Shown: piece by piece, positions 4,738-63,170 of the stretch
Numbering within the stretch: the stretch's first letter is position 1
Layout: each line of letters begins with the position of its first letter
DNA from: Flavobacteriaceae bacterium GF1
GTDB taxonomy: Bacteria > Bacteroidota > Bacteroidia > Flavobacteriales > Flavobacteriaceae
Reading direction: 5' to 3'
DNA length: 64,000 bases
Assembly (NCBI GenBank): GCA_009797885.1
Contig: WNKP01000012.1
Location: forward strand, 62,001 to 126,000
Made by a program: the position numbers and the translations under genes
The notes under the pieces: generated by a model
Told to the model about the DNA's origin: nothing
Database searches by the model: none
The model's input: the letters and a program-made list of their open reading frames with translations, nothing else

Positions 4738-6951
4738 ATGGGTAAAACTATAATTATTTCCAATAGACTCCCAGTTCAATTGCAAATAAGTGATGGGGGG
4801 CTATCCGCGATACCTAGCGTTGGAGGTCTTGCCACGGGAATGAAATCCGTGCACCATGGCGGGGAAAGTTTATGGATAGGCTGGTCAGGTTTGACCAAAG
4901 AGGACACACCCAAAGAATTGGAAGCCGATATCGATTGTGCCTTAAAGGAACACGGCTGCTCCAAAGTGGTTCTCTCGCAGAAGGAGATCGATGGTTTTTA
5001 TTTTGGCTTTAGCAACCGTACCATTTGGCCCCTGTTCCATTATTTCTTGGAATACACGGAGTTTGAACTGGGTTTTTGGGAAATATACAAAGCCGTGAAC
5101 CAAAAATTTGCCGATGCCATATTGGAAAAAGCCGAAGCCGATGATATTATTTGGGTACACGATTACCAATTACTGCTGGTACCACAGATGGTAAAGGAAA
5201 AGCGTCCCAATGCCACAATTGGTTTCTTCCTCCACATTCCCTTTCCTTCCTACGAAATCTTCCGGACATTGCCTTGGCGTGAAGAAGTCCTTGAAGGTTT
5301 GCTGGGATCGGATCTGATCGGTTTCCACACCTACGATTATGAACGCCATTTTTTGAGTTCCGTGAGGCGTTTATTGGGATTGGACGTGAGCTTTAATGAT
5401 GTCTATCTGGAAAACAGGGTAATTAAGGTCGATTCTTTTCCCATGGGCATTGATTACAACAAATTTCATACGGCAGCCCTAAAGAGTTCTGCCTTAAAGG
5501 GCAAGGAACGGACCGACTTGCAAAGGAAACTGGACAATCATAAAAAATCGGCCCCGGATACCAAATTGATCGTTTCCATTGACCGCTTGGATTATAGTAA
5601 GGGAATTGCAAAACGCATCAACGCCTTTGAGTACTTTCTGAATAAGTACCCCGAATACAAAGAACGTGTCCGACTTATTATCCTCGCCGTGCCATCAAGG
5701 GCGAACGTTCCTCAATATCAATTGCTCAAACGTGAAATTGACGAATTGGTAGGACGAATCAATGGCGAGCTTTCCACCGTGAACTGGACTCCCATTTGGT
5801 ATTTCTATCGCTCCCTACCCTTTTCAAACCTAATCGATCTTTATACCTCTTCGGATATTGCATGGCTTACCCCTTTGCGGGATGGGATGAACCTAGTGGC
5901 CAAGGAGTACATTGCCACTCGTATAGATAAAACCGGGGTCCTTATCCTCAGCGAAATGGCTGGTTCCGCCTATGAGATGAACGAGGCCCTGCTCATTAAC
6001 CCAAATAATTTTGAAGAACAGGCAGATACCCTTAAAAAGGCCATCACCATGCCCAAAGAAGAGCAAATGGCGAGAAATATGTTCCTACAAAACAGATTAA
6101 AGCGCTATAACGTAGAGGTTTGGGCCAATGAGTTTATGGATTCGTTAAAAAGACAACGCAAAGGAAGTGATGATTTTGTCTCACAGAAACTCAATCCCAC
6201 TATCCTAAACGGGTTACAAAAAGACTATGTATCCGCAAAAAAGAGACTGCTCTTTTTGGATTATGACGGTACCCTTACGGGCTTTCATAAAGATCCCCAA
6301 AAAGCCTCCCCAGATAAGGAATTGTACGAGTTGCTCGATGCACTTCACCATCAAGAGAACACCACACTTTTCCTGATAAGTGGACGTGATAAGGCAACGT
6401 TCAGCAAGTGGTTTTTGGATAAAAAATACAATATGATCGTGGAGCATGGGGTTTGGATCTCCAAGGACGGTAACGACTTTAAATTATTGGAAAAGGTCAA
6501 AGGGGAATGGATGGAAAAAATTATGCCCGTATTGGAATCCTTCGTGGACCGTACCCCAGGCTCTTTTATTGAAAAAAAGAATTATTCCCTTGCGTGGCAT
6601 TACCGTAGTACAGACCCGGATTTTGGTGAAAAAAGGGCCAACGAATTAAATACCGTGCTTACCAGTCTTATCGGAAACGATGATATCAGTGTACTCAATG
6701 GCAACAAGGTAATGGAAGTTAAGAGCAGTAATGTCAATAAAGGCAGGGCTGCCGTTCGTATGTTGGGAGAGGATAATTATGATTTTGTTTTTGCCATTGG
6801 TGATGATTGGACGGATGAATTCATGTTCCAAGACCTTCCCCAAACCGCGATAACCGTAAAAGTAGGACTCAAGAAAACCCAGGCCAGATATCATGTGGAA
6901 GGGGTACCAAAAGTTAGGGAATTACTTAAAAAATTTAGCACCGGTACATAA
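4738..6951 (+). CDS. otsAB: Bifunctional trehalose-6-phosphate synthase/phosphatase
   Basis: A 737-residue fusion. The first ~480 residues are a GT20 synthase ([65 protein letters not shown]), joining glucose from UDP-glucose to glucose-6-phosphate. The C-terminal part is a HAD-type trehalose-6-phosphate phosphatase with motif [10 protein letters not shown] (about 508) and the late [10 protein letters not shown] (about 687). Both activities in one chain allow direct conversion to trehalose, a compatible solute fitting a marine organism. Cytosolic. The downstream gene starts 2 bp after the stop, so they may share a transcript. Confidence 0.93.
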
Positions 6952-43976: not shown

Positions 43977-44732
43977 TTATTCCAACCAAAGCTTAAAGTC
44001 CTTAACACGTTCCCTACTTACAATGATTTCCTGCTCTTTAAAGGTATTCATTTTAATTTGAAGACGCGAATTGGTGTAGGATATGATGTCTTTGATGTGA
44101 TTGATGTTCACATAAAATTTGCGGCTCACCCTAAAAAAAGTTTTGGGTGACAACTCCCCTTCCAGGTTTTCGAGAGTAGTGTCCAAAAGATAATTTCTAC
44201 CATCAACGGTTGCGGCATAGGTCCCTTTGTTCTCACTGTAAAAGCATTCCACTTCATCCGAATTAATGATTTTTAGGTGCTGCCCCACCCTTACCGTAAA
44301 TCGTTTTTTATACTCCCGTTCCACAGGGTTCACCAACAGCTTTTTAATGTCCTCAAAATCAACGGAAATTTTCTCTTTTTCGGGCCTGAATTCCCGGTAT
44401 TGTTTTACGGCTTTTTCAAGCTCTTCATCATCAATGGGTTTCAACAGATAATCAATGCTATTTAACTTGAATGCCTGGAGTGCATATTCATCATAGGCGG
44501 TGGTAAAAATAATGGCGCTCTTAATGTTCACCATATCAAAAATCTCAAACGAAAGTCCGTCCGAAAGTTGGATATCCAAAAAAATGAGATCGGGATGCTC
44601 GTTGTTCTGAAACCATTCAATGGATTCTTCAACGGAATGCAATAAGGTGGATACTTCCACGTCCAGTTCTTCCAACAATCGGTTTAATCGTCTTGCTGCC
44701 GGTTTTTCGTCTTCTATGATGATGGCCTTCAT
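43977..44732 (-). CDS. LytTR-family response regulator
   Basis: 251 residues from MKAIIIEDEKPAARRL (44732). Receiver domain: acidic pair EDE (7-9), phospho-acceptor Asp53 in LIFLDIQLSDG, TAYDEYA, and the conserved Lys in YLLKPID. From about residue 135 a LytTR DNA-binding domain (KRFTVRVGQHLKIINSDEVE, FFRVSRKFYVNINHI, EIIVSRERVKDFKLWL). LytTR domains bind two direct half-sites about 21 bp apart; such sites occur at 46771, 51039 and 54231. It is last in the 2TM operon, and its partner is very probably the LytS-type kinase at 48984-50306. Confidence 0.92.
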   Translation of the reverse strand: MKAIIIEDEKPAARRLNRLLEELDVEVSTLLHSVEESIEWFQNNEHPDLIFLDIQLSDGLSFEIFDMVNIKSAIIFTTAYDEYALQAFKLNSIDYLLKPIDDEELEKAVKQYREFRPEKEKISVDFEDIKKLLVNPVEREYKKRFTVRVGQHLKIINSDEVECFYSENKGTYAATVDGRNYLLDTTLENLEGELSPKTFFRVSRKFYVNINHIKDIISYTNSRLQIKMNTFKEQEIIVSRERVKDFKLWLE

Positions 44733-44761
44733 ACAAAATGCTTTTGTGCACAATTTAACAA

Positions 44762-45088
44762 TTACTTGTCCTCGTTCAGTATTTTTTGAATCTGTCGTTC
44801 CTCCCATTTCCTAAAAGGGGTATTGCAAAAAACGGATAGGGCATGGATGCCCAACGCAATTCCCCAAATAATGGGAGTTCCCAGCACATTCCAATTGATC
44901 CATTCCAAAAAATCTGTATTTCCAAGGGCTTCCTCACTTAAAAGGACAAACCGTATGCTGCCGGAAAACAGCAACAACACCGCATTTACAATGATATAGA
45001 CCGTCAGGTGCTGGTAAAAGCCCTTTAGGGCATTGACCCTGCTTTTTGCCCTGGCCAATCTTGTGATTTCGTTATTTTGGTTTTTCAT
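44762..45088 (-). CDS. 2TM domain protein (copy 1)
   Basis: 108 residues. Pattern shared with the next five genes: basic helix RLARAKSRVNALKGFYQHLT, two membrane helices (YIIVNAVLLLFSGS; WGIALGIHALSVF), then a basic tail FRKWEERQIQKILNEDK. This is the 2TM family (two transmembrane helices) of Bacteroidota, with no known activity. The first loop is longer than in the others (EEALGNTDFLEWINW). It is immediately upstream of the response regulator gene. Confidence 0.88.
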   Translation of the reverse strand: MKNQNNEITRLARAKSRVNALKGFYQHLTVYIIVNAVLLLFSGSIRFVLLSEEALGNTDFLEWINWNVLGTPIIWGIALGIHALSVFCNTPFRKWEERQIQKILNEDK

Positions 45089-45090
45089 GG

Positions 45091-45420
45091 TTATCGGTAT
45101 TTTTTGGTTTCGTTATTTTCCTTGTCCAAGTACTTTTGGATTTGTCGTTCTTCCCATTTTTTCAGGAAAGGGAGCTTCGCCCTAAAAATATACAGGGTAT
45201 GCACCCCAAGAATCAACAGCCAAATAACTACATGGACATTTACCCAACTAAAATAATAGGCTTCCGTAGGGAATCCATTGGGAAGGACCGAATACAAAAC
45301 ACCACTTTTCAACAAATAAAATAGTCCATTAATGATGATAAACACCTTAATATGCCTATAAAACCCCTTGAGTTCCTTGACCCGCTTTTCTGCACGTTCC
45401 CGTCTGTTTTCAAAATATTC
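45091..45420 (-). CDS. 2TM domain protein (copy 2)
   Basis: 109 residues from MEYFENRRERAEKRV; a longer frame to 45453 would overlap the upstream gene. Motifs KRVKELKGFYRHIKVFIIIN, second helix WLLILGVHTLYIF and tail WEERQIQKYLDKE are as in its neighbours. Stop is 3 bp before the next gene start. Confidence 0.87.
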   Translation of the reverse strand, partial: EYFENRRERAEKRVKELKGFYRHIKVFIIINGLFYLLKSGVLYSVLPNGFPTEAYYFSWVNVHVVIWLLILGVHTLYIFRAKLPFLKKWEERQIQKYLDKENNETKKYR

Positions 45421-45430
45421 CATAGTACTA

Positions 45431-45736
45431 TTATAAGAACCTATCCGCCTCATCCCTATCTTTATCCATATACTTTTTAATTTGGCGCTCTTCCCAGGAT
45501 TTGGAAAACAATAGATTCCAATTAAAGGTTTTTATAGCGTGAAAACCTAGGCCCAAACCCCATAAAAAGGGGGTAAAAAAATGATGAAGCTGCCAAAAGT
45601 TATCGGTATGTTGGGACAGATTTATCAGAATAAAAGTATTGATGATCAGGTATATGGAAAAGTGTATGTAAAACCCTTTGATCTCATCCACACGCTTTTT
45701 TGCCCTTTTTAACTTTTCTTGTTCCAAACTGTCCAT
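45431..45736 (-). CDS. 2TM domain protein (copy 3)
   Basis: 101 residues from MDSLEQEKLKRAKKRVDEIK (45736); an ATG at 45748 would give four more residues and overlap copy 4 by 10 bp. It has IHFSIYLIINTFILINL, WGLGLGFHAIKTF and tail WEERQIKKYMDKDRDEADRFL. Tail acidic at the very end, unlike other copies. Confidence 0.86.
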   Translation of the reverse strand: MDSLEQEKLKRAKKRVDEIKGFYIHFSIYLIINTFILINLSQHTDNFWQLHHFFTPFLWGLGLGFHAIKTFNWNLLFSKSWEERQIKKYMDKDRDEADRFL

Positions 45737-45738
45737 GC

Positions 45739-46044
45739 TTATTGCCATTTTCTTTGATTTTCGTCTTTATCCATCAATTCCTTGATTTTTCGCTTTTCCC
45801 AGTCCTTTCCAAAGAAGGGATTCAGGTTAAACGTGCCTATGGCATGGAAAATCAATCCAATTCCCCAGCCAAAAGCGGCCCATAGGAACCACATATAACT
45901 CCAGCCATTGGTGTAATAGTTTAAAATGGCCAGTCCCGTGATGACCAGTACATAGGATGTAAGGTTGCCATAGAACTTTTTGAGTTCATCCACCCGCTCT
46001 TTGGCCCTTAGGTATTTGTTTTCATCTTTTCGATAGTCCATCAT
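45739..46044 (-). CDS. 2TM domain protein (copy 4)
   Basis: 101 residues. YLRAKERVDELKKFYGNLTS, helices YVLVITGLAILNYY and WGIGLIFHAIGTF, tail WEKRKIKELMDKDE. Here the usual WEERQI is WEKRKI. Confidence 0.87.
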   Translation of the reverse strand: MMDYRKDENKYLRAKERVDELKKFYGNLTSYVLVITGLAILNYYTNGWSYMWFLWAAFGWGIGLIFHAIGTFNLNPFFGKDWEKRKIKELMDKDENQRKWQ

Positions 46045-46071
46045 TATAGTTTTTTGTTGCTATTCCTAGTA

Positions 46072-46365
46072 TTACCACTCATCCTTATCCATCAATTCCC
46101 TGATCTTGCGCCTTTCCCAGTCCCTTCCGAAAAGGCCCCCAATGCCGAAGAGTTTAATGGCTTTTAGTGCAATGCCCAGCCCAACACCAAGTACCACCCA
46201 TAAAAACCAGGGATGGCTCCATTCATTCAAATAATAGTTAATTATAGCGACCACCACTATGGCCAATAGGCCCCGTAGGCAACGGCCATAGAACCTTTTT
46301 AGTTCCGTCACACGTTGGTTTGCTCGCAAATATTTACTGTCATTAATGTTGTTGGGCTCTTCCAT
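46072..46365 (-). CDS. 2TM domain protein (copy 5)
   Basis: 97 residues starting MEEPNNINDSKYLRANQRV. Helices GLLAIVVVAIINYYLNEW and VVLGVGLGIALKAIKLF (the usual H-A of GLxxHA is L-K here). Tail WERRKIRELMDKDEW. Gaps of about 27 bp to the copy downstream and 24 bp to the copy upstream. Confidence 0.87.
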   Translation of the reverse strand: MEEPNNINDSKYLRANQRVTELKRFYGRCLRGLLAIVVVAIINYYLNEWSHPWFLWVVLGVGLGIALKAIKLFGIGGLFGRDWERRKIRELMDKDEW

Positions 46366-46389
46366 TGGTCATCGCTTTTATAAAATTAC

Positions 46390-46668
46390 TTAAAAAGTAT
46401 CGCTGTCCATCAATTCCCTGATCTTGCGTTCCTCCCAGTTTTTACCCAATATTGGATTGTATCCAAAGGCACAAAAACCATGGGCTACCAGGCCTATGCC
46501 CCAGCCCAAAGCTGGAAAAATGACCCAGGGGAAGCTGGTGGTAAAATAATTTAGTATTGCCAATAATGAAATTATGCCAACATACACCGTTGCATGGGTA
46601 TAAAACTCTTTGATTTCCTTTACCCGGGCCTTGGCCTTTTGATATCTGTACTCGTTTGTAGTTTCCAT
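46390..46668 (-). CDS. 2TM domain protein (copy 6, first gene of operon)
   Basis: 92 residues, METTNEYRYQKAKARVKEIK, helices YVGIISLLAILNYF and WGIGLVAHGFCAFGYNP, tail WEERKIRELMDSD. It heads the 2TM-response regulator operon; a LytTR-type element lies about 100 bp upstream. The end FGYNPILGKNWEERKIREL is closest by eye to the domain fused to the kinase (FGYNPLWGKRWEEKKIREL). Confidence 0.88.
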   Translation of the reverse strand: METTNEYRYQKAKARVKEIKEFYTHATVYVGIISLLAILNYFTTSFPWVIFPALGWGIGLVAHGFCAFGYNPILGKNWEERKIRELMDSDTF

Positions 46669-47036
46669 AGTGTTTTGCTTTTAGGTTGACTTGGACTTGA
46701 CCAGCCAACAGGTTGTTTTTTAATTACACTTCAAATATCCGTTAGGAAGGGCATGAAAGAAAAAAGGACTGACCGAACTGTATTTTTTGAGGGATGGGCT
46801 GTTGGGTGGCTTCCGCACTTGGGATTTTACATTGATTCCTTTGCTGAAATCCTTGTAATCCTATTAAATAAATCAACCATAAACACTAATCAAACTGTAT
46901 AAGTTTTTACTATCTTTCATGTAGTCTTTTATATGTTAAAAAATAGGGTTTTGAATTTCCAAACGTTTTTTTAGGGGTTGCCTATTGGCATTCATCTACA
47001 AAATAGGTACAAGAATAGCAATTATTAATAGTTAAG
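46669..47036. other. Divergent intergenic region
   Basis: About 370 bp between the 2TM operon (minus) and the first tail-fibre-like gene (plus). It contains the LytTR-like site at 46771-46806 near the left end and an AT-rich stretch from 46860 on that probably bears the plus-strand promoter (ACTATCTTTCATG around 46910). No other gene seen. Confidence 0.6.
46771..46806 (-). promoter_or_regulatory. Putative LytTR-type operator A
   Basis: On the minus strand ACAGCCCATCCC (from 46802) and ACAGTTCGGTC (from 46781) start exactly 21 bp apart. The same pair occurs at two further sites in the window with the same spacing. Two direct half-sites at two-helical-turn spacing is the binding mode of LytTR domains. 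It lies about 100 bp upstream of the 2TM-response regulator operon. Confidence 0.6.
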
Positions 47037-47924
47037 ATGATACGAAAAATTCTAGCAGCAACGATAGCATTTGGGGCTATTTTTAGCGCAAGTTCCCAAG
47101 AACAAATACAAACAAATCTTGGATTAAAAAATGATTTTACCTATAACAATGGCAACATAAGCATAGGGGGACAAAATAGTTATGATTACCGATTATCAAT
47201 ATCCAAAGGTAATAGCAGTTCTAGACTAGCCTTTACTAATTCAGGATTCCCAGAAAATGCAATTTTGGAATATCACACCTCTGGACAGTTGAGGTTCCAG
47301 AGATGGATCGATGGTATATGGAACAGCAATTTAGTGACTATTGATTACTTAAGTGGTAATCTTGGTATAGGAACAATAGATATTAAACAGAATTTATCCA
47401 TTAAAGACCAAAGACCCAAAATTGCCTTAATTGATGAAAACGGAGACGCAGGAGTAATCGAATTCTATGAGATCTCTAATCAAATTCGTTTCCAAAAATG
47501 GTTAAACAACGGAGGCTCACATGACAAAACTATAATGACACTCAATGGTGATGATGGATTTGTCGGTATAGGAACGATATCTCCCGATATGAAACTAACA
47601 GTAAACGGAAACATTCACGCCAAAGAAGTGAAAATTGACCTTAATATTCCTGTTCCTGATTATGTTTTTAAGGAAAGTTATGAGTTAAAAAGTTTGGAAG
47701 AGGTAGAGAAATTTATAGCGAAAAACAACCATCTCCCTGAAATTCCCTCGGCAATGGAATTTGAAAAAAATGGGATAATGCAAGCCGAAATGGATATGAA
47801 CCTCCTTAAAAAAATTGAGGAACTAACACTCTACACAATCCAACAAGAAAAACAATTGCATAAGCAATCGAAAGAAATCGAGGAATTAAAAAGACTTGTC
47901 CAAAAATTACTCGAATTGGAATAA
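47037..47924 (+). CDS. Tail-fibre-like secreted coiled-coil protein (paralogue 1)
   Basis: 295 residues with signal peptide MIRKILAATIAFGAIFSASS. Middle part holds repeated short beta motifs (GNLGIGTIDIKQNLSI, DGFVGIGTISPDMKLTVNGN), like phage tail-spike/fibre stem repeats. The C-terminus has HAKEVKIDLNIPVPDYVFKE, KFIAKNNHLPEIPSAMEFEK and a coiled coil (LLKKIEELTLYTIQQEKQ). This C-terminal form is common in secreted proteins of Flavobacteriia; role unknown. It is visibly more AT-rich than its surroundings and on the strand opposite to the flanking signalling genes. Confidence 0.78.
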   Translation: MIRKILAATIAFGAIFSASSQEQIQTNLGLKNDFTYNNGNISIGGQNSYDYRLSISKGNSSSRLAFTNSGFPENAILEYHTSGQLRFQRWIDGIWNSNLVTIDYLSGNLGIGTIDIKQNLSIKDQRPKIALIDENGDAGVIEFYEISNQIRFQKWLNNGGSHDKTIMTLNGDDGFVGIGTISPDMKLTVNGNIHAKEVKIDLNIPVPDYVFKESYELKSLEEVEKFIAKNNHLPEIPSAMEFEKNGIMQAEMDMNLLKKIEELTLYTIQQEKQLHKQSKEIEELKRLVQKLLELE

Positions 47925-47988
47925 TAAGAGGCTTATCACAAAACTCAATCCGTTATGTTCAATTTACCCACCGAAAAATCATTGAAAA

Positions 47989-48858
47989 ATGAAAAGATTA
48001 CCAATTCTAATTATCACGATTCTCTTTTGCACTAGAACAACGTCACAAACAGTGGACGCCAACTACCTAAATCCCCAAAGTATAAATGCGGGAACTTATA
48101 AGTTCCTGCGATTTGGAAATTCCTCAGAATTCACCGCTGGATTCATGTACAATGAAACAAGTGTGGACTATGGGGATGGAAACGATTTTTCCATATTCAC
48201 CTATGATAATCGTGACGTCACCATTAGGACCGGAACAGGAAACTTTATTCTTTTCCCAAGTGCGGGCGGAAAAATGGGCATAGGGGTGACAAGCCCTAGG
48301 GAATTATTGGATATTAATGGAACCGGCATGCGCATAGGTTCAAGAGGTTTTAACTTGGTTGCCCAAAGTTATATCAATCTTTACGAAGGTGAAGATCATC
48401 ACGGAGCAAGGCTTTTTTTAAATGGTAATTCGAATAGGTTTATAATTAAGACACGATTACAAAATACCGATAGTGATGTTCTTGTAATTCCCTATGCCGG
48501 TGAATTTGCAGGAAACGTGGGAATAGGGACCTTAAATCCCAGGGCAAAACTTTCAGTTGAAGGCCAAATTCGGGCAACTGAAGTTAAGGTTTTGGCAGAT
48601 ATTAGTGTTCCCGACTATGTTTTCGAACCGAATTATGAGCTTCGAACACTTAAGGAAACCAAGGAATACATAACGAAAAACAAACATCTTCCAGAAATTC
48701 CACCTGCAAGGGAAATTAAAAAAAATGGAATTGACCTTGGTGACATGAACATGCGCCTTTTAAAGAAAATTGAGGAACTCACACTTTATCAAATTGAACT
48801 ACTGGAACGATTGGAAGAAGCCGAACAAAAGATACAGAAACTTGAAAACGAAAAATAA
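47989..48858 (+). CDS. Tail-fibre-like secreted coiled-coil protein (paralogue 2)
   Basis: 289 residues, signal peptide MKRLPILIITILFCTRTTS. It carries GKMGIGVTSPRELLDI and GNVGIGTLNPRAKLSVEG (short fibre repeats), and the same C-terminal block as paralogue 1 (ISVPDYVFEPNYELRTLKE, KNKHLPEIPPAREIKKNG, LLKKIEELTLYQIE). The two genes are 64 bp apart and probably arose by tandem duplication. They end convergently to the histidine kinase gene. Confidence 0.78.
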   Translation: MKRLPILIITILFCTRTTSQTVDANYLNPQSINAGTYKFLRFGNSSEFTAGFMYNETSVDYGDGNDFSIFTYDNRDVTIRTGTGNFILFPSAGGKMGIGVTSPRELLDINGTGMRIGSRGFNLVAQSYINLYEGEDHHGARLFLNGNSNRFIIKTRLQNTDSDVLVIPYAGEFAGNVGIGTLNPRAKLSVEGQIRATEVKVLADISVPDYVFEPNYELRTLKETKEYITKNKHLPEIPPAREIKKNGIDLGDMNMRLLKKIEELTLYQIELLERLEEAEQKIQKLENEK

Positions 48859-48983
48859 ATCGAATAGCTACTAAGGTCAATACGGTTTCCTATTTCCGAT
48901 TGCCATTGTCTTGAAAGCGGCCCTTCCGAACTACCCAAATGAGTGGTTAAACGGTGAATGATGTTGAATATGCCAAAGTGGTT

Positions 48984-50306
48984 TCAAAAATCCTCCTTCT
49001 CCATCAATTCCCGTATCTTTTTCTCCTCCCATCGCTTGCCCCATAGGGGATTGTACCCAAAAGCTTCCATCCCATGGGCCATAACACCAAAACCCCAGCC
49101 CACGGTGGGGAAAATGGCCCAAAGAAAACTGGTGGTCCTAAAATTGAGCCACCACAGAAAGGGAATCACCAGGCCATAGGCAATAAGGTTCCCATAGAAC
49201 CCCTTTATCGCTTCCACCCGCTCCTTGGCCTTCAAGTAGCGTTTTTCCTCAATATGCGTTTCCTGGGTTTCCATTACGGAAATCTGTCTGGACAACATGG
49301 GCAATTGTACACTAAAATCCTTGTTGGTCTTGGCAATGCGGACCTCCCTATCGGTTAAAATGGAATAACGCTGTCGAATATTCTGTAGCCCTACCCCACT
49401 ACTCTTTTTTACCACTTGTTTTTCCTGAAGGTTATTACTTACCGCCAACATTCCTTTGTCCTCATACACTTTTATGTGAAGGGGTTTGGAAGAAGTCACC
49501 ACATTGTGCTTTACCGCGTTTTCCAGCAAAAGCTGAAGGGAAAGGGGGACTATTTTAGCATCGGGATCGGTGGCCTGCTCCGGAATATCAAAAACAATAC
49601 TATCCTCAAACCGCATTTTTAATAAACGTACATACGTACGTGCAAAGTTGAGTTCCTCATCCACCGTGACCAAATCCTTGTTTTTTTGCTCCAATACATA
49701 GCGGTATACCTTGGAAAGCGAAGTGGTGAATTTCTGGGCCTGATGGGGGTCCTCTTCTATTAAACTGGTCAGTACATTGAGGCTATTGAACAGAAAGTGG
49801 GGATCCAATTGGTTTTTAAGGGCATCAAACCGTGCAGAAGCGGTACCGGCAATAATCTTTTGTTCCTTGACTTCCTTTTTCTGTAGCGCCCGATAAAAAT
49901 AAAACGCATGGAAAAATAAAATGGCTATGATGGTAATGACCACCGTAAAGACATAATTCTCCGGTTCTTCCTTTTCAAAAAACTTGACAATACCGTTCCC
50001 CGTGTAATAAAAATAGATAAGGTAACGCAGGACAACTATGGTCAAAACTGAAAAGACAAAAGACCCAAGAGCACCCAGCCAGAGTCTTTTTTTAGGGTCC
50101 GTTTCCCAGTTAAAACGCAAGTTCAGCCCATCGTAATAGTAAGAGTTCACTGCGGTAAGTGAGAAGGAAAAGATAAAGTCCACAAGTATTTGTGGACCAA
50201 TGTTCTCCCAGGAATAATCACCATCGCCATAAACGATAATATCGAAGAAGACGACCACAACCGTGATGACCAGTGAAATCTTTATGACTTTTACGAGGGT
50301 GTTCAT
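48984..50306 (-). CDS. LytS-type histidine kinase with fused C-terminal 2TM domain
   Basis: 440 residues. Four membrane helices in residues 1-140; then HisKA_7TM/His_kinase-type domain with phospho-acceptor His170 in QLDPHFLFNSLN, an ATPase N-box LLLENAVKHN (about 259-268) and GVGLQNIRQRY (about 305). From about residue 345 a complete 2TM domain follows (YLKAKERVEAIKGFYGNL, WAIFPTVGWGFGVMAHG, WEEKKIRELMEKEDF). Partner of the LytTR regulator at 43977-44732. The start is 3 bp from the stop of the TPR-like gene, so they are co-transcribed. A histidine kinase ending in a 2TM domain ties the six free-standing 2TM genes to this pathway. Confidence 0.9.
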   Translation of the reverse strand: MNTLVKVIKISLVITVVVVFFDIIVYGDGDYSWENIGPQILVDFIFSFSLTAVNSYYYDGLNLRFNWETDPKKRLWLGALGSFVFSVLTIVVLRYLIYFYYTGNGIVKFFEKEEPENYVFTVVITIIAILFFHAFYFYRALQKKEVKEQKIIAGTASARFDALKNQLDPHFLFNSLNVLTSLIEEDPHQAQKFTTSLSKVYRYVLEQKNKDLVTVDEELNFARTYVRLLKMRFEDSIVFDIPEQATDPDAKIVPLSLQLLLENAVKHNVVTSSKPLHIKVYEDKGMLAVSNNLQEKQVVKKSSGVGLQNIRQRYSILTDREVRIAKTNKDFSVQLPMLSRQISVMETQETHIEEKRYLKAKERVEAIKGFYGNLIAYGLVIPFLWWLNFRTTSFLWAIFPTVGWGFGVMAHGMEAFGYNPLWGKRWEEKKIRELMEKEDF

Positions 50307-50309
50307 TAT

Positions 50310-50951
50310 TTAGCCTTTACATTGCTCCAAAACCTGCTTGGCCTGATCTTGGCCCCAACTTGGATAAAAGGGCGTATCGTTTTCAAAGGTAGCGAATAGT
50401 TCCAAAGCCCTTTCCACATCTTTGCAATAGGGTGTTGTATCCTTACCAAAATAGCGGGCAGAGCCCATGTCCCAGTTCGCTTTTGAATACACTACCCTTG
50501 GGTTTTCAGGAGCCAATTGTAGGGCACGATTGTACAATTGCATGTTTTTTCCCGATAACATTGGACCATAGGTAGCACCGTCAAAAGCCATCCAGGCCGT
50601 ATTGATCATTGCCTCCTGAACCACAATTTCGGCATTGTCCGGAGCAATTCTCTTGGCAATATCAACAAATTCCTTCGCCTTATCCAAACGCTGCCGCAAC
50701 AGTGCTTCATCTTTTAGTCCAAATGCAGAGGTGGTATTGACCTGTGCCACGTAGTAATAGGGAATCCAATTATCGTGCTCCGCCATGGCAATACGTTCAA
50801 ATAGATTGGAGGCTTCCGTAATCTTCCCCTGGCCCCATAAATCCATGGCCTTGGACATTCCCTTGGTATATTGATCCTGTGCCGTTAGGGCAACCGCAAT
50901 CAATAAGGCGCATACTGTTACAACTGTTCTGATTGATCTTTTGTTTTTCAT
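50310..50951 (-). CDS. Secreted TPR-like protein, first gene of kinase operon
   Basis: 213 residues from MKNKRSIRTVVTVCALLIAV. That start is preferred over ATGs at 50981 and 50966 because it gives a proper signal peptide and because the TonB receptor at 54172 has the same leader sequence before its ATG (ACAGTC-ATGAAAAAC). Helical repeats of TPR type: KAMDLWGQGKITEASNLFER, LDKAKEFVDIAKRIAPDNAE, MQLYNRALQLAPENPRVVYS. Acts outside the cytoplasm; may feed a signal to the kinase. Function not known. Confidence 0.78.
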   Translation of the reverse strand: MKNKRSIRTVVTVCALLIAVALTAQDQYTKGMSKAMDLWGQGKITEASNLFERIAMAEHDNWIPYYYVAQVNTTSAFGLKDEALLRQRLDKAKEFVDIAKRIAPDNAEIVVQEAMINTAWMAFDGATYGPMLSGKNMQLYNRALQLAPENPRVVYSKANWDMGSARYFGKDTTPYCKDVERALELFATFENDTPFYPSWGQDQAKQVLEQCKG

Positions 50952-51038
50952 GACTGTTCGTGTTTCCATTGCTGTATTCATTTATTCTTGATTTCACCGT
51001 AAAATTCGGTGCTCCATTCGATGTTGGGCAATTCCATT

Positions 51039-51073
51039 GACCGAATTGTAAATTTTTGGGGATGGGTTGTAGG
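51039..51073 (-). promoter_or_regulatory. Putative LytTR-type operator B
   Basis: Minus strand: ACAACCCATCCCC (from 51070) and ACAATTCGGTC (from 51049), 21 bp apart, about 90 bp upstream of the TPR-like/kinase operon start. Matches sites A and C. Confidence 0.6.
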
Positions 51074-51083
51074 TTTTACTTTG

Positions 51084-51250
51084 TTTGATGTTGGATGTTA
51101 GAGGTTGGATGCTAGATGCTGGAGATTAGAGGTTGGATGTCCGATTCCTAATTCCTAACTCCTGATTCCTAATTCCTGATTCTTGAAGTTGGAGGTTAGA
51201 TTTCCGATTTCTGATATCTAATGTCTTACGTCTCATATCCCATCTCATAT
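51084..51250. repeat. Degenerate short-unit repeats with strand switches
   Basis: A purine-biased part on the plus strand (GATGTTAGAGGTTGGATGCT.., units of about 7-9 bp) changes near 51140 to pyrimidine-rich units (CCTAATTCCTAACTCCTGA), then a second purine stretch near 51184-51200 and back. The two halves are rough reverse complements, so large imperfect hairpins are possible. Similar in kind to 23468-23670. It lies between the divergent TPR-like and DoxX-like genes. Confidence 0.8.
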
Positions 51251-51275
51251 CTCAAAATTGACAAACTTGTGGGAC

Positions 51276-51301
51276 GTACTACAAGTCCGTAGTACAAATC
51301 C
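51276..51301. repeat. Tandem 13-bp repeat with internal dyad
   Basis: GTACTACAAGTCC followed directly by GTAGTACAAATCC (11 of 13 identical); GTACTAC and GTAGTAC also form a 7-bp inverted repeat with 6-bp spacer. It lies about 70 bp upstream of the DoxX-like gene. Confidence 0.6.
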
Positions 51302-51371
51302 ACAGCTCAAATATTTTCATATCTGCCTTAAAATGAGTATTTTATAAAGGGGTTACAAAAAACGTACGACT

Positions 51372-51794
51372 ATGGGAACTATTAAAAAACTGAATAAGTG
51401 GGCCAATGCCCACACCTACTATCCCTTGGACCTGGTTAGGATAACCTTGGGAGGCTTTCTTTTCTATAAGGGTGTTGAGTTTATGAACAATCAGGGTAGA
51501 ATGCTGGAATTAATGCAACCCTTCGACGGAATGGCATTGGAGATGGTAATCCTTCACTACATTGCCCCGGCACACTTTCTCGGTGGCATTTTGATCGTCC
51601 TGGGATTGTTGACACGTTGGGTAACCATTGCCCAGCTCCCTATTTTGATTGGAGCCGTACTGACCAATTTTTTGGGCACTATGGACATTACCAACCTTAT
51701 TCTTTCCCTGGTCACGTTGTTACTTTGTATTTTCTTTTCCATCTATGGTTCCGGAAAACACTCAGCCGACTATTACCTTAAAATGCAACAGTAA
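51372..51794 (+). CDS. DoxX family membrane protein
   Basis: 140 residues with about four membrane helices (YPLDLVRITLGGFLFYKGVE, HFLGGILIVLGLLTRW, LPILIGAVLTNFLG, LILSLVTLLLCIFFSIYGSG). RITLGGFLFYKG and the GLLTRWVT loop fit DoxX. Role in bacteria ranges from quinone-linked to redox-stress modules; not assigned here. Single gene; no signal peptide. Confidence 0.82.
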   Translation: MGTIKKLNKWANAHTYYPLDLVRITLGGFLFYKGVEFMNNQGRMLELMQPFDGMALEMVILHYIAPAHFLGGILIVLGLLTRWVTIAQLPILIGAVLTNFLGTMDITNLILSLVTLLLCIFFSIYGSGKHSADYYLKMQQ

Positions 51795-52009
51795 GTTTTT
51801 GTCCAGGGTTTTGACAATGGTTGCAAGAAACCGGAGCATTCGCAATCAATATACTCTTTTTAGATCATGGATCAACTAAACCCAGGATGTTGTACAACTA
51901 CGCATCTCCATTGTTGCTTTACCTTCCTTTATCCACCCCCGTCATCCTACATGGCCATTAAAAAGGATTTCGTGCCCCTAATTTTAAGCATCCTTAATCC
52001 AAAAAGATT

Positions 52010-54172
52010 TTACAAATTATCCAACTGATTGCTTTTTTTATCATCGCTCAAGGTCCAAAAGAAGCCCACAAAGAAGAAACTGTCCGCTGCCGGACGTACC
52101 GCCCTACGTTCAAATACCCCAACATTGTTCGGCGCATCCGCATATTGGTAATTATTGATGTTGTTTATTCCCAAAATATTGTTTATTGAAAAGAACAGGA
52201 TCTTTTGCTGATCGATCAAATAGGCCCAATTAAAGCTTAGATTTTGGAACGGTCTGGTCCTTTCGGCCAAAAACTCTGGTGTATTAGGGTTATCATAAGG
52301 TCTCCCTGAACCATGTAGATAGGTTAGCCCTATTTGTGAGCGAAGTTTGTCCGCCCAATATTTGGTCACAATTGAAAAACTGTGCTTAGGTGCAAAATTA
52401 GGCGTGGCCGCTTCGGGAAAGTTGCGAAAATCCCTTTCCGTATCCAAATAACTGTAAGAAATCCAATAATCCAGATTGTCTATACTTTTATTGTCCCGCC
52501 AAAAAATATCCAGTCCAGTGGCATATCCACTTCCGTTATTTGAATATTCAGAGTCGAACTGCGGAAATTGGGTATTGAACTTTACCAAATCATCGTAGTC
52601 TTTGTAAAAGGCCTCAGCGCGAAAGGTCTTCCCGTCGTTCAAATACTGGTAATTAAAGATATAGTGCGATGTTTTTTCCGAGGTCACGCTTCGGTTAAAT
52701 TTAAGTACATCCCGTATCGGGTTCTGGTAAAAGTCACCATAGGCGACGGAAAATTGGGAGAATTCCCCACTTTTATAGGCCAATGATAATCTGGGAGAAA
52801 TGGTCAATTCGTCCAGAACCGAAGGACGCTCTACCCTCCCTCCCAGCTTTAGGGCAAAATCGTTGCTAAAAAAGATATCCGTTTCCAAAAAACCTGCCCA
52901 AAGCACATCATCAAAACTACTTTCAAAAGAAAAACCGTCCGGTTGTTCCACGTTTTCCTCAAAATTGGTATGAAATACTTCTGCTCCCATATTTAACTCA
53001 AATCTATTACTGAAGCTTTTGGAGACCTTCGCTTTTAAATGACCCGCAGTTTCGTTGTTTTCTATGTCATTATCAAAGACCAGAATACTATTGGTGTCCC
53101 TGGATATACTGGCCCCCAAACTCACGCCCCAGTCGCTCTCGAAAAAATGTTTGTAACTGGAATTGAAATAGAGGTTGTTGTTCCGTAAACGAAAGCGGAC
53201 AAAATCCTCGAAATTGATATCTTCCTGGTCAATATCCAAATTGGAATAGTTGAAGCTCGTATACAATTTGAAGATGGTTCTATCGCCCTTGCTTCTAAAG
53301 ACCCCTTCTCCCTGAATCGATTCAAAGGGTTTGTTCCATCGCACGCCTTGAGTGGAAGGTATTAAGGTCTCGTAAGGGGCCAAATTGACGTATTGGGTGC
53401 TGAAACTTAGGGATTCCTTGCCCCAAATTTCGGTATGTCCCAATTGCGCCCCAACGGACATTGCCCCAATATCCGTTTTTTCCATTTCGGGAACATCTAT
53501 GGTATTCAATAACAGTACACTGGACAATGCTTGCCCATATTCGGCGGAATAGCCCCCTGTGCTAAAAGTGATGCCCTTAAAAAGCATTGGGGAAAACCGA
53601 CTTCTTGTCGGTATGTTCTGTGCGGTTCCAAAGAAAGGTTGAAATACCCTTATCCCATCAATAAATACCTGGGTTTCCTCAGCCCCACCACCCCTCACAA
53701 AAAGACGGCCATCCTCGTTTATGGTTGTTGTTCCGGGAAGGGTCTGAAGCGCACCGACCACATCTGCCAAGGCTCCGGCTGTGGTTACAATGTCCAAAGG
53801 CTTTAAAACGGAAACCTTGGAGTTGTCCCCGGCCTCAAAAGTTCCAGCCGTGAGGGTAACTCCGGTTAACTGGTTAATGGCTTCGATCAATTTTATGTCG
53901 AGCTTCTGAAAATAGGAAACATCCCCCATTTCGTAGTGGGGGTCGTACCCCAAAACGGAAACGACCAGGGTTTGCGTTCCCGTTTCACCCGTCTCAAAGA
54001 AGAAAGCCCCGTTTTCATCCGTTGAAGCTCCATCATAGGTGCCTTCCAAGTACACATTGGCACCGGAAATGCCATTTCCGGCCTTATCGGTGACCATTCC
54101 GTTGATAGTGGTTTGGGCGGATGAAACCCAAATGGCAAGTAAGGTGGTTAAAAGTACGGCTAGGTTTTTCAT
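52010..54172 (-). CDS. TonB-dependent receptor with CarboxypepD_reg-like domain
   Basis: 720 residues with signal peptide MKNLAVLLTTLLAIWVSSAQ. Residues ~22-105 form a carboxypeptidase-regulatory-like domain (INGMVTDKAGNGISGANVYL). The plug follows (LKPLDIVTTAGALADVVGAL, LFVRGGGAEETQVFIDGIRV), then a 22-strand-type barrel with many aromatic-ended strands and a last strand FFFVGFFWTLSD. The gene lacks a SusD-like partner, so a polysaccharide-utilisation role is less likely; peptide, cofactor or siderophore import is possible. The upstream region carries operator C, tying it to the LytTR regulator. Confidence 0.92.
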   Translation of the reverse strand: MKNLAVLLTTLLAIWVSSAQTTINGMVTDKAGNGISGANVYLEGTYDGASTDENGAFFFETGETGTQTLVVSVLGYDPHYEMGDVSYFQKLDIKLIEAINQLTGVTLTAGTFEAGDNSKVSVLKPLDIVTTAGALADVVGALQTLPGTTTINEDGRLFVRGGGAEETQVFIDGIRVFQPFFGTAQNIPTRSRFSPMLFKGITFSTGGYSAEYGQALSSVLLLNTIDVPEMEKTDIGAMSVGAQLGHTEIWGKESLSFSTQYVNLAPYETLIPSTQGVRWNKPFESIQGEGVFRSKGDRTIFKLYTSFNYSNLDIDQEDINFEDFVRFRLRNNNLYFNSSYKHFFESDWGVSLGASISRDTNSILVFDNDIENNETAGHLKAKVSKSFSNRFELNMGAEVFHTNFEENVEQPDGFSFESSFDDVLWAGFLETDIFFSNDFALKLGGRVERPSVLDELTISPRLSLAYKSGEFSQFSVAYGDFYQNPIRDVLKFNRSVTSEKTSHYIFNYQYLNDGKTFRAEAFYKDYDDLVKFNTQFPQFDSEYSNNGSGYATGLDIFWRDNKSIDNLDYWISYSYLDTERDFRNFPEAATPNFAPKHSFSIVTKYWADKLRSQIGLTYLHGSGRPYDNPNTPEFLAERTRPFQNLSFNWAYLIDQQKILFFSINNILGINNINNYQYADAPNNVGVFERRAVRPAADSFFFVGFFWTLSDDKKSNQLDNL

Positions 54173-54512
54173 GACTGTTTGTTTTTTGATACCTCAAAAG
54201 TCATGTATTGGCCCAATCGAAGAAATTAAGGTCTACCCAATTGTAGCTTTATAGGGATGGATTGTATCCCATCAAACAACTAAAACCATAGTATATCCAT
54301 GGCTTTCACACATCTTTTTTTGATTCCAACCCTTTAATTATTAGATTTTTAGTATCTTATAAGAATTCAGAGTCATTCTTGCCCCACGCAATCACAGAAG
54401 TTTCCCCGCATTGAATATCCGATCTCCGTAGCTGTACGGAAAATGTTTGGCCAATTCGCCAAATAGAAAGTATATCCTTTTATTTAAACACATAACCAAT
54501 AAATCAAAGTAG
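54173..54512. other. Divergent intergenic region
   Basis: About 340 bp between the TonB receptor (minus) and the gene at 54513 (plus). It contains operator C (54231-54270) and AT-rich sequence towards the plus gene (e.g. TTTAAACACATAACC before 54513). I see nothing else. Confidence 0.55.
54231..54270 (-). promoter_or_regulatory. Putative LytTR-type operator C
   Basis: Minus strand: ACAATCCATCCC (from 54265) and ACAATTGGGTAGAC (from 54244), 21 bp apart, about 60 bp upstream of the TonB receptor start. Second half-site deviates from A and B at one base (TTGGGT for TTCGGT). Confidence 0.55.
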
Positions 54513-55277
54513 ATGAAAAAAGTAGTTTTCGCACTATTGCTAGTGCCCTTATTTGTCTTGGCGCAGGAGCGCCAGGAAGAGCCCGTTTTTATGAACGTAA
54601 TGATCACTCCAAATCCCGCTAAGATTTCGGAGTTCGAAGCAGGTCTTACTGCACACAACAAAAAGTATCATGCCACAGGAGCCAATGCAGTCCGGGTCTA
54701 TTGGATTGCCAGTGGGGAGAATTCCGGTAAGTACATCTGGAGTATGGGTCCCACGACATGGGCGGCATTTGATGAATCCACCAATCCAAGCGGAGATCAC
54801 GTCCAGGATTGGAATGCCAATGTGGCCCCTTACGCCGAAGCCGAAATGGAGACTACCTATTGGAAAGGGGATGCCAAACATTCCAATTTCACCAAGGACT
54901 TTACCATGAAAAATCTGGCCATCTTTTATTTGGACATGAAACGCTTTAAGCAGCAAGAGTTCATGTCCGTTTTGGGAAAAGTAACCCAGGTATTCAAGGA
55001 AAAAGATGCGGATGAGCAATGGGGTGTTTATTGGAATCAGTTGAGCAATAGGGACGGCAAGGATATGGTTTGGGTGAATTTCTTCGAATCCATGACCTGG
55101 ATGGCCGAGGATGATATGTTCCCACAGTGGTATGAAGAGGTCCATGGGGAAGGAACTTTTATGGAATTCCTCAAGGAATTTGAAGCTTCCACCCATGCGG
55201 ACTACCAGGAACTGTGGGCGTTTAGAGGTGATTTAAGTGGCTTGTCCGGAGAGGTGGTCATTACCCAGAATCAATAA
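54513..55277 (+). CDS. Secreted protein of unknown function (possible dimeric alpha/beta barrel)
   Basis: 254 residues, signal peptide MKKVVFALLLVPLFVLAQ. The residues after it (FMNVMITPNPAKISEFEAGL, GKYIWSMGPTTWAAFDE) and again at ~130 (NLAIFYLDMKRFKQQEFMSV, DMVWVNFFESMTWMAEDD) look like two ferredoxin-like/ABM half-barrels, a guess from strand-helix order. Rich in Trp, Met and acidic residues. No known family named. Own terminator behind it. Confidence 0.72.
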   Translation: MKKVVFALLLVPLFVLAQERQEEPVFMNVMITPNPAKISEFEAGLTAHNKKYHATGANAVRVYWIASGENSGKYIWSMGPTTWAAFDESTNPSGDHVQDWNANVAPYAEAEMETTYWKGDAKHSNFTKDFTMKNLAIFYLDMKRFKQQEFMSVLGKVTQVFKEKDADEQWGVYWNQLSNRDGKDMVWVNFFESMTWMAEDDMFPQWYEEVHGEGTFMEFLKEFEASTHADYQELWAFRGDLSGLSGEVVITQNQ

Positions 55278-55299
55278 AAAACGGCTTCCTACCTATTAG

Positions 55300-55323
55300 A
55301 AGGCTCCTTAGGGGGCCTTTTTT
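55300..55323 (+). terminator. Rho-independent terminator
   Basis: Stem AAGGCTCC / GGGGCCTT (one T-G wobble), 4-nt loop TTAG, then a T run. It ends the gene at 54513-55277. Confidence 0.8.
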
Positions 55324-55386
55324 ATGTTCAAACGTAGGTACAGCATTAAATTTCCTATCTTACATACCACACCTAATCCAACCAAA

Positions 55387-56886
55387 ATGAAAAAAATAGC
55401 GCTCCTCACCCTGCTTTTTTTGGCAGCAACCATTGTATACGCCCAGAATTCCGAAAAGGTCAAAATACTTGATGGCATGATCCAACAAGGGATGACCGAT
55501 TGGAAAATACCAGGTTTGGCTGCCGTTGTGGTCAAGGATGGCGAAGTGGTCTTTAAAAAGACCTATGGGGTAAAAAGCATGGCAACTAAAGAAGCCGTAA
55601 ATGGACAGACCCTGTTTGCCATGGCATCCACTACAAAAGCCATGGTGGCCATGGCCCTGGGAATTTTGGTGGATGAGGGCAAATTGGATTGGAACGATAA
55701 GGTTGTGGACCATCTGCCCAACTTTCAACTCTCCGATCCCTATATTACCGCAGATGCCAGGGTAAAGGACCTGCTTACCCATAATCTGGGCATCGCCAAT
55801 GCGGATGTGCTTTGGGTATTGGACAGCATTTCAACCGACCTTACCTTAAAACGGTTCAAACACACCAAAAAAATATATCCGTTACGAGGTGGATTCACCT
55901 ACCAAAACATTATGTATGCCGCTGCAGGAGAAGTCATTGCGGCAGTGAGCGGTATGCCTTGGGACCGTTTTATTGAAATGCGATTGTTCAAACCTTTAAA
56001 TATGAACCGCTCCCAAACCAGGGCGGCCAACATTCCAAAAGTTGAGAATTCCGTAACGCCGCATTATGATTTTGGAGAGGGTGGTGTTCAAGTGGTCGAT
56101 CGAAACTATTCCGACCAAATTGGTGCTGCTGGGATGATGTGGTCCTGTATTGATGATATTTCGAACTATTTGAAGTTCGTTTTGAGCAAGGGCATACAAA
56201 ACCAGGATACCATACTACGACCCAGCACCTTTAAAACCTTGTTCCAACCCCATACCCTCATTCCAAAAAATCAATTTTATCCCACAATAAAACTCACAGA
56301 GCCCAATTGGTTGAGTTATGGCCTGGGATGGTTCCAACATGACTATCGCGGACAGAAATTGGACTTTCATACGGGGAGCCTCCAGGGACTTATTGCAATA
56401 GCAGGGGTGATACATGACAGAAATACCGCAGTTTATGTATTTGGAAATATGGATCATGCAGAATTGCGACATGCCATTATGTATCAAGCCATGGATTTGT
56501 TTGCCTTTGATGATGAGGGTACCAACTGGCATCCCAAAATATTTGAGCTCTATGAAACCCTAAAAAAAGAAAGGATCAAAGGGGCACAAAAGCAAATAGG
56601 GGCCCGTATGCCAAATACCAGTCCTTCTTTGGATTGGAATGCCTATACGGGCAACTACCATCACCCCCTCTGTGGAACCCTGAAAATCACGTCCGATAAT
56701 GAAACCTTGAAACTTGACTTCAATGAATTTCAACAAATAGAGGCCTCCCATTGGCATTTGGATACATTTATGACCAAACCCAATAAACAATGGACATCCG
56801 CTTCGGCAATGGTTTTCCATATCAATGGGAAAGCCAAGGTAGCATCCTTGGAATTCTCTGGATATACCTTCACAAAATCGAATTAA
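55387..56886 (+). CDS. Class C beta-lactamase-family serine hydrolase
   Basis: 499 residues from MKKIALLTLLFLAATIVYAQ (signal peptide). Catalytic motifs: STTK at 81-84 (nucleophile Ser and Lys), YQN at about 172 in GFTYQNIMYAAAG, and HTG in LDFHTGSLQGL (about 330). It has an extra C-terminal domain of ~100 residues (NAYTGNYHHPLCGTLKI) like D-aminopeptidase/esterase members. Could be a D-aminopeptidase, DD-peptidase or esterase. Followed after 11 bp by a D-aminoacylase-like gene, which supports D-peptide work; activity against beta-lactams is not implied. Confidence 0.88.
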   Translation: MKKIALLTLLFLAATIVYAQNSEKVKILDGMIQQGMTDWKIPGLAAVVVKDGEVVFKKTYGVKSMATKEAVNGQTLFAMASTTKAMVAMALGILVDEGKLDWNDKVVDHLPNFQLSDPYITADARVKDLLTHNLGIANADVLWVLDSISTDLTLKRFKHTKKIYPLRGGFTYQNIMYAAAGEVIAAVSGMPWDRFIEMRLFKPLNMNRSQTRAANIPKVENSVTPHYDFGEGGVQVVDRNYSDQIGAAGMMWSCIDDISNYLKFVLSKGIQNQDTILRPSTFKTLFQPHTLIPKNQFYPTIKLTEPNWLSYGLGWFQHDYRGQKLDFHTGSLQGLIAIAGVIHDRNTAVYVFGNMDHAELRHAIMYQAMDLFAFDDEGTNWHPKIFELYETLKKERIKGAQKQIGARMPNTSPSLDWNAYTGNYHHPLCGTLKITSDNETLKLDFNEFQQIEASHWHLDTFMTKPNKQWTSASAMVFHINGKAKVASLEFSGYTFTKSN

Positions 56887-62631: not shown

Positions 62632-62750
62632 TTGGCCATGGCCTGGTTACATTTCGTCATGGAAATCCAACAATTGGGTATCTCCCAGTTTTAAACCATG
62701 GTCTTCTCTTCTAGTTTTGGGTCATCATTAACGTTTAAATCAAGAAACCC

Positions 62751-63170
62751 ATGAAAACTTTTGTATTTGTTTTATGTACCCTTATCAGTAGTCTTTTTAT
62801 CAACGCCCAGAAAACGCAGGGCGCTACCATTACCGTAACCATTGACAACATCGTCAATGATGAAGGAAAAGTCATCATTGCGCTGCACAGCAATGAAACC
62901 TTTATGCGGGGGGAAGGAATCATGAGTCAGGAAAGCACCATTACGGATGGTAAAGTGGAATTTACCTTTGAAGGGGTGCCTGTTGGAACGTACGCCATAA
63001 TGGCCTTACATGACGCCAATAACAACAATACAATGGACTATGAAGCGAATGGAATGCCCAAGGAAAGTTATGGTATGAGTGGAAATGAAATGACCATGGG
63101 GCCACCGAGTTTTGAAATGGCCAAATTTAATGTGACCGACGAAGACTTGGAATTCAACATCCGATTCTAA
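62751..63170 (+). CDS. DUF2141 secreted protein
   Basis: 139 residues with signal MKTFVFVLCTLISSLFINAQ. It carries ITVTIDNIVNDEGKVIIALH, GVPVGTYAIMALHDANNNNT and the end DEDLEFNIRF, the pattern of DUF2141, a small beta-sandwich exported protein of Bacteroidota and Proteobacteria. Function unknown. Single gene followed by a strong terminator. Confidence 0.87.
   Translation: MKTFVFVLCTLISSLFINAQKTQGATITVTIDNIVNDEGKVIIALHSNETFMRGEGIMSQESTITDGKVEFTFEGVPVGTYAIMALHDANNNNTMDYEANGMPKESYGMSGNEMTMGPPSFEMAKFNVTDEDLEFNIRF

Follow-up and report, generated by a model that had tools for sequence, protein, structure and literature searches.

A two-part LytTR-type promoter element and its predicted response regulator in the Flavobacteriaceae

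The locus and its elements

The stretch of DNA analysed here (64,000 nucleotides from the marine Flavobacteriaceae bacterium GF1, contig WNKP01000012.1, positions 62,001-126,000; hereafter the window) carries three neighbouring minus-strand transcription units: six small 2TM-domain proteins followed by a response regulator with receiver and LytTR domains, a secreted TPR-like protein followed by a LytS-type histidine kinase that ends in its own 2TM domain, and a TonB-dependent receptor (Table 1). Ahead of each unit lies a copy of the same 31-bp element, with two half-sites that start exactly 21 bp apart. In relatives, these elements occur upstream of the same genes, are joined in a fixed register to a predicted core promoter, and co-occur with orthologs of the regulator. 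Together, these results make it very probable that the regulator binds the elements and activates its own operons together with a small envelope regulon.

A sequence-only reading had described the three minus-strand elements with their 21-bp spacing, and all were recovered at those places: a scan of the window with the pattern gave 3 exact matches, compared to a mean of 0.00 in 100 dinucleotide shuffles. Measured from the ATG, elements 1, 2 and 3 have their near ends at 104, 59 and 63 bp and their starts at 134, 89 and 93 bp upstream. The distances of 100, 90 and 60 bp given earlier thus mixed ends with starts. A genome scan had also been proposed; with a relaxed pattern allowing up to 2 mismatches, the 5.28-Mb genome yielded only these three sites, and a backwards control yielded 1.

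The same reading reported no further copies in the window, and its own pattern, scanned with up to 3 mismatches, indeed found nothing there beyond elements 1-3. However, a fourth copy with a divergent first half is present ahead of the DUF2141 gene, one mismatch away from the family pattern derived below and in the same promoter register as elements 1-3. When the pattern was extended to include the promoter, six places in the bacterium's own genome (G000) matched with up to 3 mismatches (control, 0): elements 1-4, a site in contig C7 (G000:C7) and a site in contig C54 (G000:C54).

Table 1. Elements, predicted promoter boxes and genes in the window
Feature	Position	Strand	Details
LytTR-type element 1	46772..46802	-	half-site starts 46802, 46781; ahead of 2TM/response-regulator operon; position weight matrix (PWM) score 62.8 bits
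LytTR-type element 2	51040..51070	-	half-site starts 51070, 51049; ahead of TPR/kinase operon; PWM 42.8 bits
LytTR-type element 3	54235..54265	-	half-site starts 54265, 54244; ahead of TonB-dependent receptor; PWM 52.3 bits
LytTR-type element 4, divergent first half	62649..62679	+	ahead of DUF2141 gene; PWM 40.1 bits
Predicted -7 box GATATTTG	46732..46739	-	in register with element 1; estimated transcription start site (TSS) ~46727
Predicted -7 box GAATTTTA	51000..51007	-	in register with element 2; estimated TSS ~50995
Predicted -7 box GACTTTTG	54195..54202	-	in register with element 3; estimated TSS ~54190
Predicted -7 box TAGTTTTG	62712..62719	+	in register with element 4; estimated TSS ~62724
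Response regulator, receiver and LytTR domains	43977..44807	-	Pfam PF00072 and PF04397 above cut-off
Six small 2TM-domain proteins	44762..46668	-	PF13239 in all six; ahead of regulator; 44762-45088, 45091-45453, 45431-45748, 45739-46044, 46072-46365, 46390-46668
LytS-type histidine kinase, C-terminal 2TM domain	48984..50306	-	PF06580, PF13239
TPR-like secreted protein	50310..50981	-	first gene of kinase operon; weak TPR matches only
TonB-dependent receptor	52010..54172	-	CarboxypepD_reg-like and Plug domains
Secreted DUF2141 protein	62751..63170	+	PF09912, 8.6e-32

The nearest named relative of the regulator comes from a Croceivirga sp. metagenome-assembled genome (99% identity). Among NCBIfam models, BtsR was the best match, at 114.9 bits against a cut-off of 246, and a PDB search returned relatives of the receiver domain only. 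Since most orthologs align only from residue 24-26, the true start of the regulator probably lies near 44732. At least six further LytTR regulators, with 35-44% identity to this one, are encoded in the genome; in the own-genome scan at up to 3 mismatches, there was no site beside any of six such paralogs.

Family motif and promoter architecture

To describe the element across relatives, we used 43 sites from the window and the relatives' loci, chosen by their half-site letters only and with two near-identical loci left out. They gave the family form ACARTTCATCC-N10-ACARTTSGGT, in which two direct LytTR-type half-sites are evident. These 43 sites from the retrieved loci were also the training set of the PWM. 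The spacing stood out when ACARTT pairs were counted in 131 loci: 85 had a start-to-start distance of 21 bp, while at most 8 fell at any other distance from 6 to 60. Counted as 9-bp units, the half-sites are separated by 12 bp. The second one reaches to +29, 9-10 bp before a run of T (+39 to +42).

Positions outside the letters used for selection were also conserved. Among the 43 sites, T occurred at +40 in 43, A at +64 in 41, T at +67, +68 and +69 in 42 each, and G at +70 in 35. Larger sets gave the same picture, with T at +40 in 320/322 sites and AnnTTT at +64-69 in 311 of 324 distinct sites chosen by half-sites alone. The core promoter predicted downstream of the element therefore consists of a T-run at 9-10 bp followed by (G/C)AnnTTTG. 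Conservation was confined to the half-sites and the promoter boxes, and the DNA between them varied.

The published flavobacterial -7 consensus is TAnnTTTG (PMC9723704). By comparison with it, the element is locked to a predicted core promoter whose T-run falls in the -33 region and whose -7 box is near consensus. Because of this match, we placed the TSS ~5 bp past the box (PMC9723704). The first base of the box departs from the consensus: across the 324 sites it was T in 26, G in 173, C in 111 and A in 14, so that G or C accounted for 284/324. This off-consensus base is a possible mark of activator dependence. The box of element 2, GAATTTTA, differs further in that A replaces the last G.

In one relative, two near-identical copies of site plus promoter lie 1.8 kb apart before two unrelated secreted proteins (L118, G055:C11, at 4997 and 6778), as if the promoter had been duplicated.

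Conservation, targets and co-occurrence with the regulator

The sequence-only reading had called for a comparison of upstream regions in relatives, and the site was retained there. A site of at least 16 bits was present upstream of the regulator on the same strand in 47/49 regulator loci (the window and L063-L110). Across all 61 loci, a set that in part coincides with the training set, we counted 100 sites at this threshold and 0 in the reversed control. We then assembled a held-out set by removing from 80 named loci the 8 that overlapped training loci; of the remaining 72, 63 had at least 3.5 kb upstream of the regulator. All 63 carried a site upstream of the regulator, with 130 sites in total compared to 0 in the reversed control. 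Nearly all of these (127/130) lay 60-700 bp upstream of a 2TM (69), TPR (35) or kinase (23) gene. The held-out loci also contain 70 starts of the neighbouring LETM-like gene, and to none of these was a site assigned.

We determined whether sites and regulator occur together in 159 family genomes, one per genus. As the relaxed pattern was too noisy across relatives, sites were called with the promoter-extended pattern at up to 2 mismatches, which gave 1 control hit over all 159 genomes; regulators were called at E <= 1e-75. Sites were detected in 115 genera and the regulator in 123. Both were present in 113, the regulator only in 10, the site only in 2 and neither in 34 (Fisher p 2.5e-23; 16 regulator-lacking genomes of this table were derived by subtraction). 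For genomes of at least 3 Mb, a split counted by hand, the corresponding numbers were 99/8/2/6 (p 2.6e-5). Outside the family, the relaxed pattern matched in 8/39 genomes, compared to 6/39 with control hits.

Of the two genomes with sites only, G128 has a contig-truncated regulator that falls just past the threshold. In the other, G016, no regulator was found at E 1e-30, and strong sites remain before the DUF2141 gene (54.2 bits) and the head-GIN gene (45.1 bits) (L284, L325). At a third G016 locus (L358, G016:C8:36000-55000), a 27.5-bit site stands beside a TonB tail of 17 residues and a TPR fragment spread over two frames, with no kinase, 2TM or regulator match within 19 kb. Because only TPR and TonB fragments remain, we read G016 as a case of recent loss in which sites were left behind.

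To follow the predicted targets beyond the regulator's operons, we took orthologs from 60 family genomes and scored sites of at least 14 bits within 600 bp upstream. The loci comprised 30 of 31 for the TonB receptor, all 25 for DUF2141 and the best 30 of 47 matches for head-GIN, several of them from the same genomes. Sites preceded the TonB-receptor orthologs in 29/30 loci, the DUF2141 genes in 24/25, and the PspC-linked head-GIN genes in 17/30 (best 30 of 47), compared to 0/85 in the reversed control. Three further head-GIN loci were just below threshold or weak (12.8, 11.0 and 7.5 bits). In G034 and G039, a DUF4440-like gene intervenes between the site and head-GIN. TonB receptors remote from the regulator still carry the site, as in G042 and in G034, where the two are at 1.1 Mb and 2.3 Mb of one contig.

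In the bacterium's own genome, the G000:C7 site (3 mismatches, 35.4 bits) lies before a head-GIN (DUF2807) gene. The order there is PadR, DUF4440 and DUF4870 genes, then a PspC/LiaI-LiaF-TM/Toast-rack protein, the site and head-GIN. The order PspC, site, head-GIN recurred in 26 distinct loci, which had been picked for having a site. The earlier proposal that kinase, regulator, 2TM proteins, TPR protein and TonB receptor form one autoregulated unit is supported by the comparison, and the unit was drawn too small, as it leaves out the DUF2141 gene and a head-GIN gene elsewhere in the genome.

Targets found in few loci were serine hydrolase-like, S41-like and ABC ATPase genes. The G000:C54 site is weak (18.8 bits, 3 mismatches) and lies before a gene for a DUF2306 membrane protein (L270, G000:C54:230000-241000, site at 5235); stronger sites occur ahead of DUF2306-like genes in G043 and G156. 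The 60 regions examined around sites are a selection among the matches listed from the 159-genome scan and no census. We set aside three matches as apparent chance hits: L117, which scored 12.2 bits, and L187 and L188, where no site was present.

Two gene pairs in the window accompany the system. Two secreted coiled-tail proteins are encoded between the kinase and 2TM operons (47037-48858, plus strand). They have no counterpart in the near-identical relative G002 and only a fragment in G007, so the pair looks like a local insertion. Two genes run divergently from the TonB receptor (54513-56886, plus strand), one for a secreted protein that matches no family and the other for a serine hydrolase of the beta-lactamase family (PF00144). 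These are conserved neighbours in several relatives, and no site of their own was seen.

Predicted regulation, alternatives and relation to known systems

In the model that best explains these data, each element is the binding site of the regulator at 43977-44807. Two LytTR domains would occupy the direct half-sites, which are 9-10 bp long and offset by two helical turns, and would line up on the same side of the helix. Their position would be ~9-10 bp ahead of the -33 region, at a weak promoter in which the -7 box does not begin with the usual T. We infer that the LytS-type kinase phosphorylates the regulator, which would then bring RNA polymerase to the TPR-kinase operon and to the genes for the TonB receptor, the DUF2141 protein and head-GIN (Toastrack; behind PadR-PspC at G000:C7) and so turn on their expression. 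Activation of the 2TM-regulator operon would add positive feedback. The 2TM proteins probably modulate the kinase at the membrane; one of them is fused to it. We propose this scheme because spacing and promoter placement match those of published LytTR targets (PMC6193735, PMC4227749). The suggestion that this LytTR regulator acts on the three sites, including those of its own genes, had been made from the window, and the comparison across relatives supports it.

Several observations weigh against this interpretation. Two regulator loci (L106, L107) have no site, and 13/30 head-GIN loci (best 30 of 47) have none at threshold. The first half-sites in the window (ACARYCC) deviate from the family form (ACARTTC). 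The held-out loci come from close relatives, with regulators 75-92% identical; the 63 loci are consequently non-independent, and much of their conservation reflects common descent. In the 159-genus comparison, ten genomes have the regulator and no site in the strict search, and those lacking the regulator are mostly small. Finally, the relaxed pattern used at first was noisy across relatives when 2 mismatches were allowed: it matched 54/99 genomes, and 26/99 had a backwards-control hit.

We considered whether another LytTR regulator or an unrelated factor might read the sites, with the adjoining regulator merely linked to them genetically. The paralogs described above would supply candidates, and G016 keeps strong sites without a detectable regulator ortholog. 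However, the sites track this regulator's ortholog group over the 159 genera, they precede its own operon in nearly all regulator loci and are not found beside the six paralogs, and the gene fragments in G016 fit recent loss. A paralogous regulator as reader was rejected, since at up to 3 mismatches no sites lie beside the six paralogs, and we judge the broader alternative quite unlikely. The direction of regulation is a separate question, as it cannot be read from sequence alone, and the regulator could bind the sites and repress, giving negative feedback. Against this, the sites stay entirely ahead of the -33 region, at a constant distance from it, and do not overlap the promoter. The first base of the -7 box departs from the consensus, which is what a promoter in need of an activator should show, and the studied LytTR targets with this placement are activated (PMC6193735, PMC4227749). 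Repression thus appears unlikely.

Nothing was found in favour of reading the elements as chance matches, copies of a dispersed repeat or RNA elements, and such a reading is hardly credible. Zero matches in shuffles rule out a chance origin, conservation limited to half-sites and promoter boxes speaks against a repeat, and an RNA element was rejected because the sites are upstream of the predicted TSS and so outside the transcript.

We compared the predicted system, in which the LytTR regulator acts as an activator, with known ones. At LytTR targets described so far, direct repeats of 9 bp are in most cases separated by 12 bp and often lie 10 bp ahead of -35, and the regulators feed back positively on themselves (PMC6193735). 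The locus has the corresponding features: a nearby regulator with receiver and LytTR domains, ~9-bp repeats at ~21 bp and ~10 bp before -35/-33, and a site before the regulator's own operon. The mechanism would therefore be known in kind, working like known LytTR promoters. Staphylococcus AgrA, a LytTR response regulator, is similar in that it binds two direct repeats just upstream of the agr promoters P2 and P3, which have suboptimal promoter elements (PMC4227749). It differs in belonging to another phylum; here, the promoter is of the Bacteroidota -33/-7 type, the first half-site has a CATC(C) tail and the second ends in SGGT. AgrA is also part of a peptide circuit, whereas the partners here are 2TM proteins, a TPR protein and a TonB receptor. 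The half-site ACARTT resembles what we take to be the AgrA half-site, ACAGTTAAG.

The LytTR Regulatory Systems (LRS) HdrRM and BrsRM of Streptococcus mutans share the repeat spacing and placement, positive autoregulation and small membrane proteins in the operon (PMC6193735). They pair a LytTR regulator with a membrane inhibitor outside known signalling types (PMC6193735), and the present system falls outside this class, since it has a receiver domain and a histidine kinase. The E. coli pairs BtsS/BtsR and YpdA/YpdB likewise combine a LytS-type kinase with a LytTR response regulator that controls a membrane protein gene, without 2TM, TPR or TonB partners. A regulon of such composition across a whole family is not known to us. 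The open-access literature searched, which leaves out most subscription papers, contained no description of the one predicted here; PMC5399024, on an OmpR-type system, and PMC8895600, PMC10269533 and PMC10434189 had little or no bearing on it.

The target genes suggest a further connection. One target, head-GIN or DUF2807, is a Toastrack protein and lies directly behind PadR-PspC; PspC and Toastrack domains also occur in Lia/PSP envelope-stress systems. A survey of PSP systems links Toastrack with two-component and LytTR regulators and discusses PspC-Toastrack loci for membrane-stress signalling (PMC11237479). Unlike those systems, the LytTR unit itself has no PSP protein (no search was aimed at PspA), and the site separates PspC from head-GIN within the locus instead of preceding PadR-PspC. 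We hypothesize a role in envelope stress; the targets are envelope proteins, one of them in a PspC-Toastrack locus. A more specific and tentative idea, which we regard as possible rather than probable, is that the system corresponds, in the Flavobacteriaceae, to Lia/Psp envelope-stress signalling. The 2TM-anchored kinase would sense membrane state or TonB-receptor traffic, the small 2TM proteins would give membrane-embedded feedback, and the regulator would turn on a core set of genes shared across the family (kinase operon, TonB receptor, DUF2141 and the head-GIN Toastrack lipoprotein inside the PadR-PspC locus) through promoters silenced by the off-consensus -7 box.

A lead comes from a coevolution study of Flavobacterium johnsoniae in which 5/5 coevolved isolates were mutated in FJOH_RS09515 (LytTR; isolates 2 and 5) or FJOH_RS09520 (kinase; isolates 1, 3 and 4) (PMC10197871). 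These two genes, with adjacent numbers, are candidate counterparts of the LytTR-2TM system.

For a two-component system present in 123/159 sampled genera of a major marine family, the results define a predicted binding motif, describe the architecture of the promoter and name a small number of targets. Four families about which little is understood (2TM, DUF2141, head-GIN/DUF2807 and this TonB receptor) fall within a single predicted regulon, which would link a LytTR system to the PadR-PspC-Toastrack locus.

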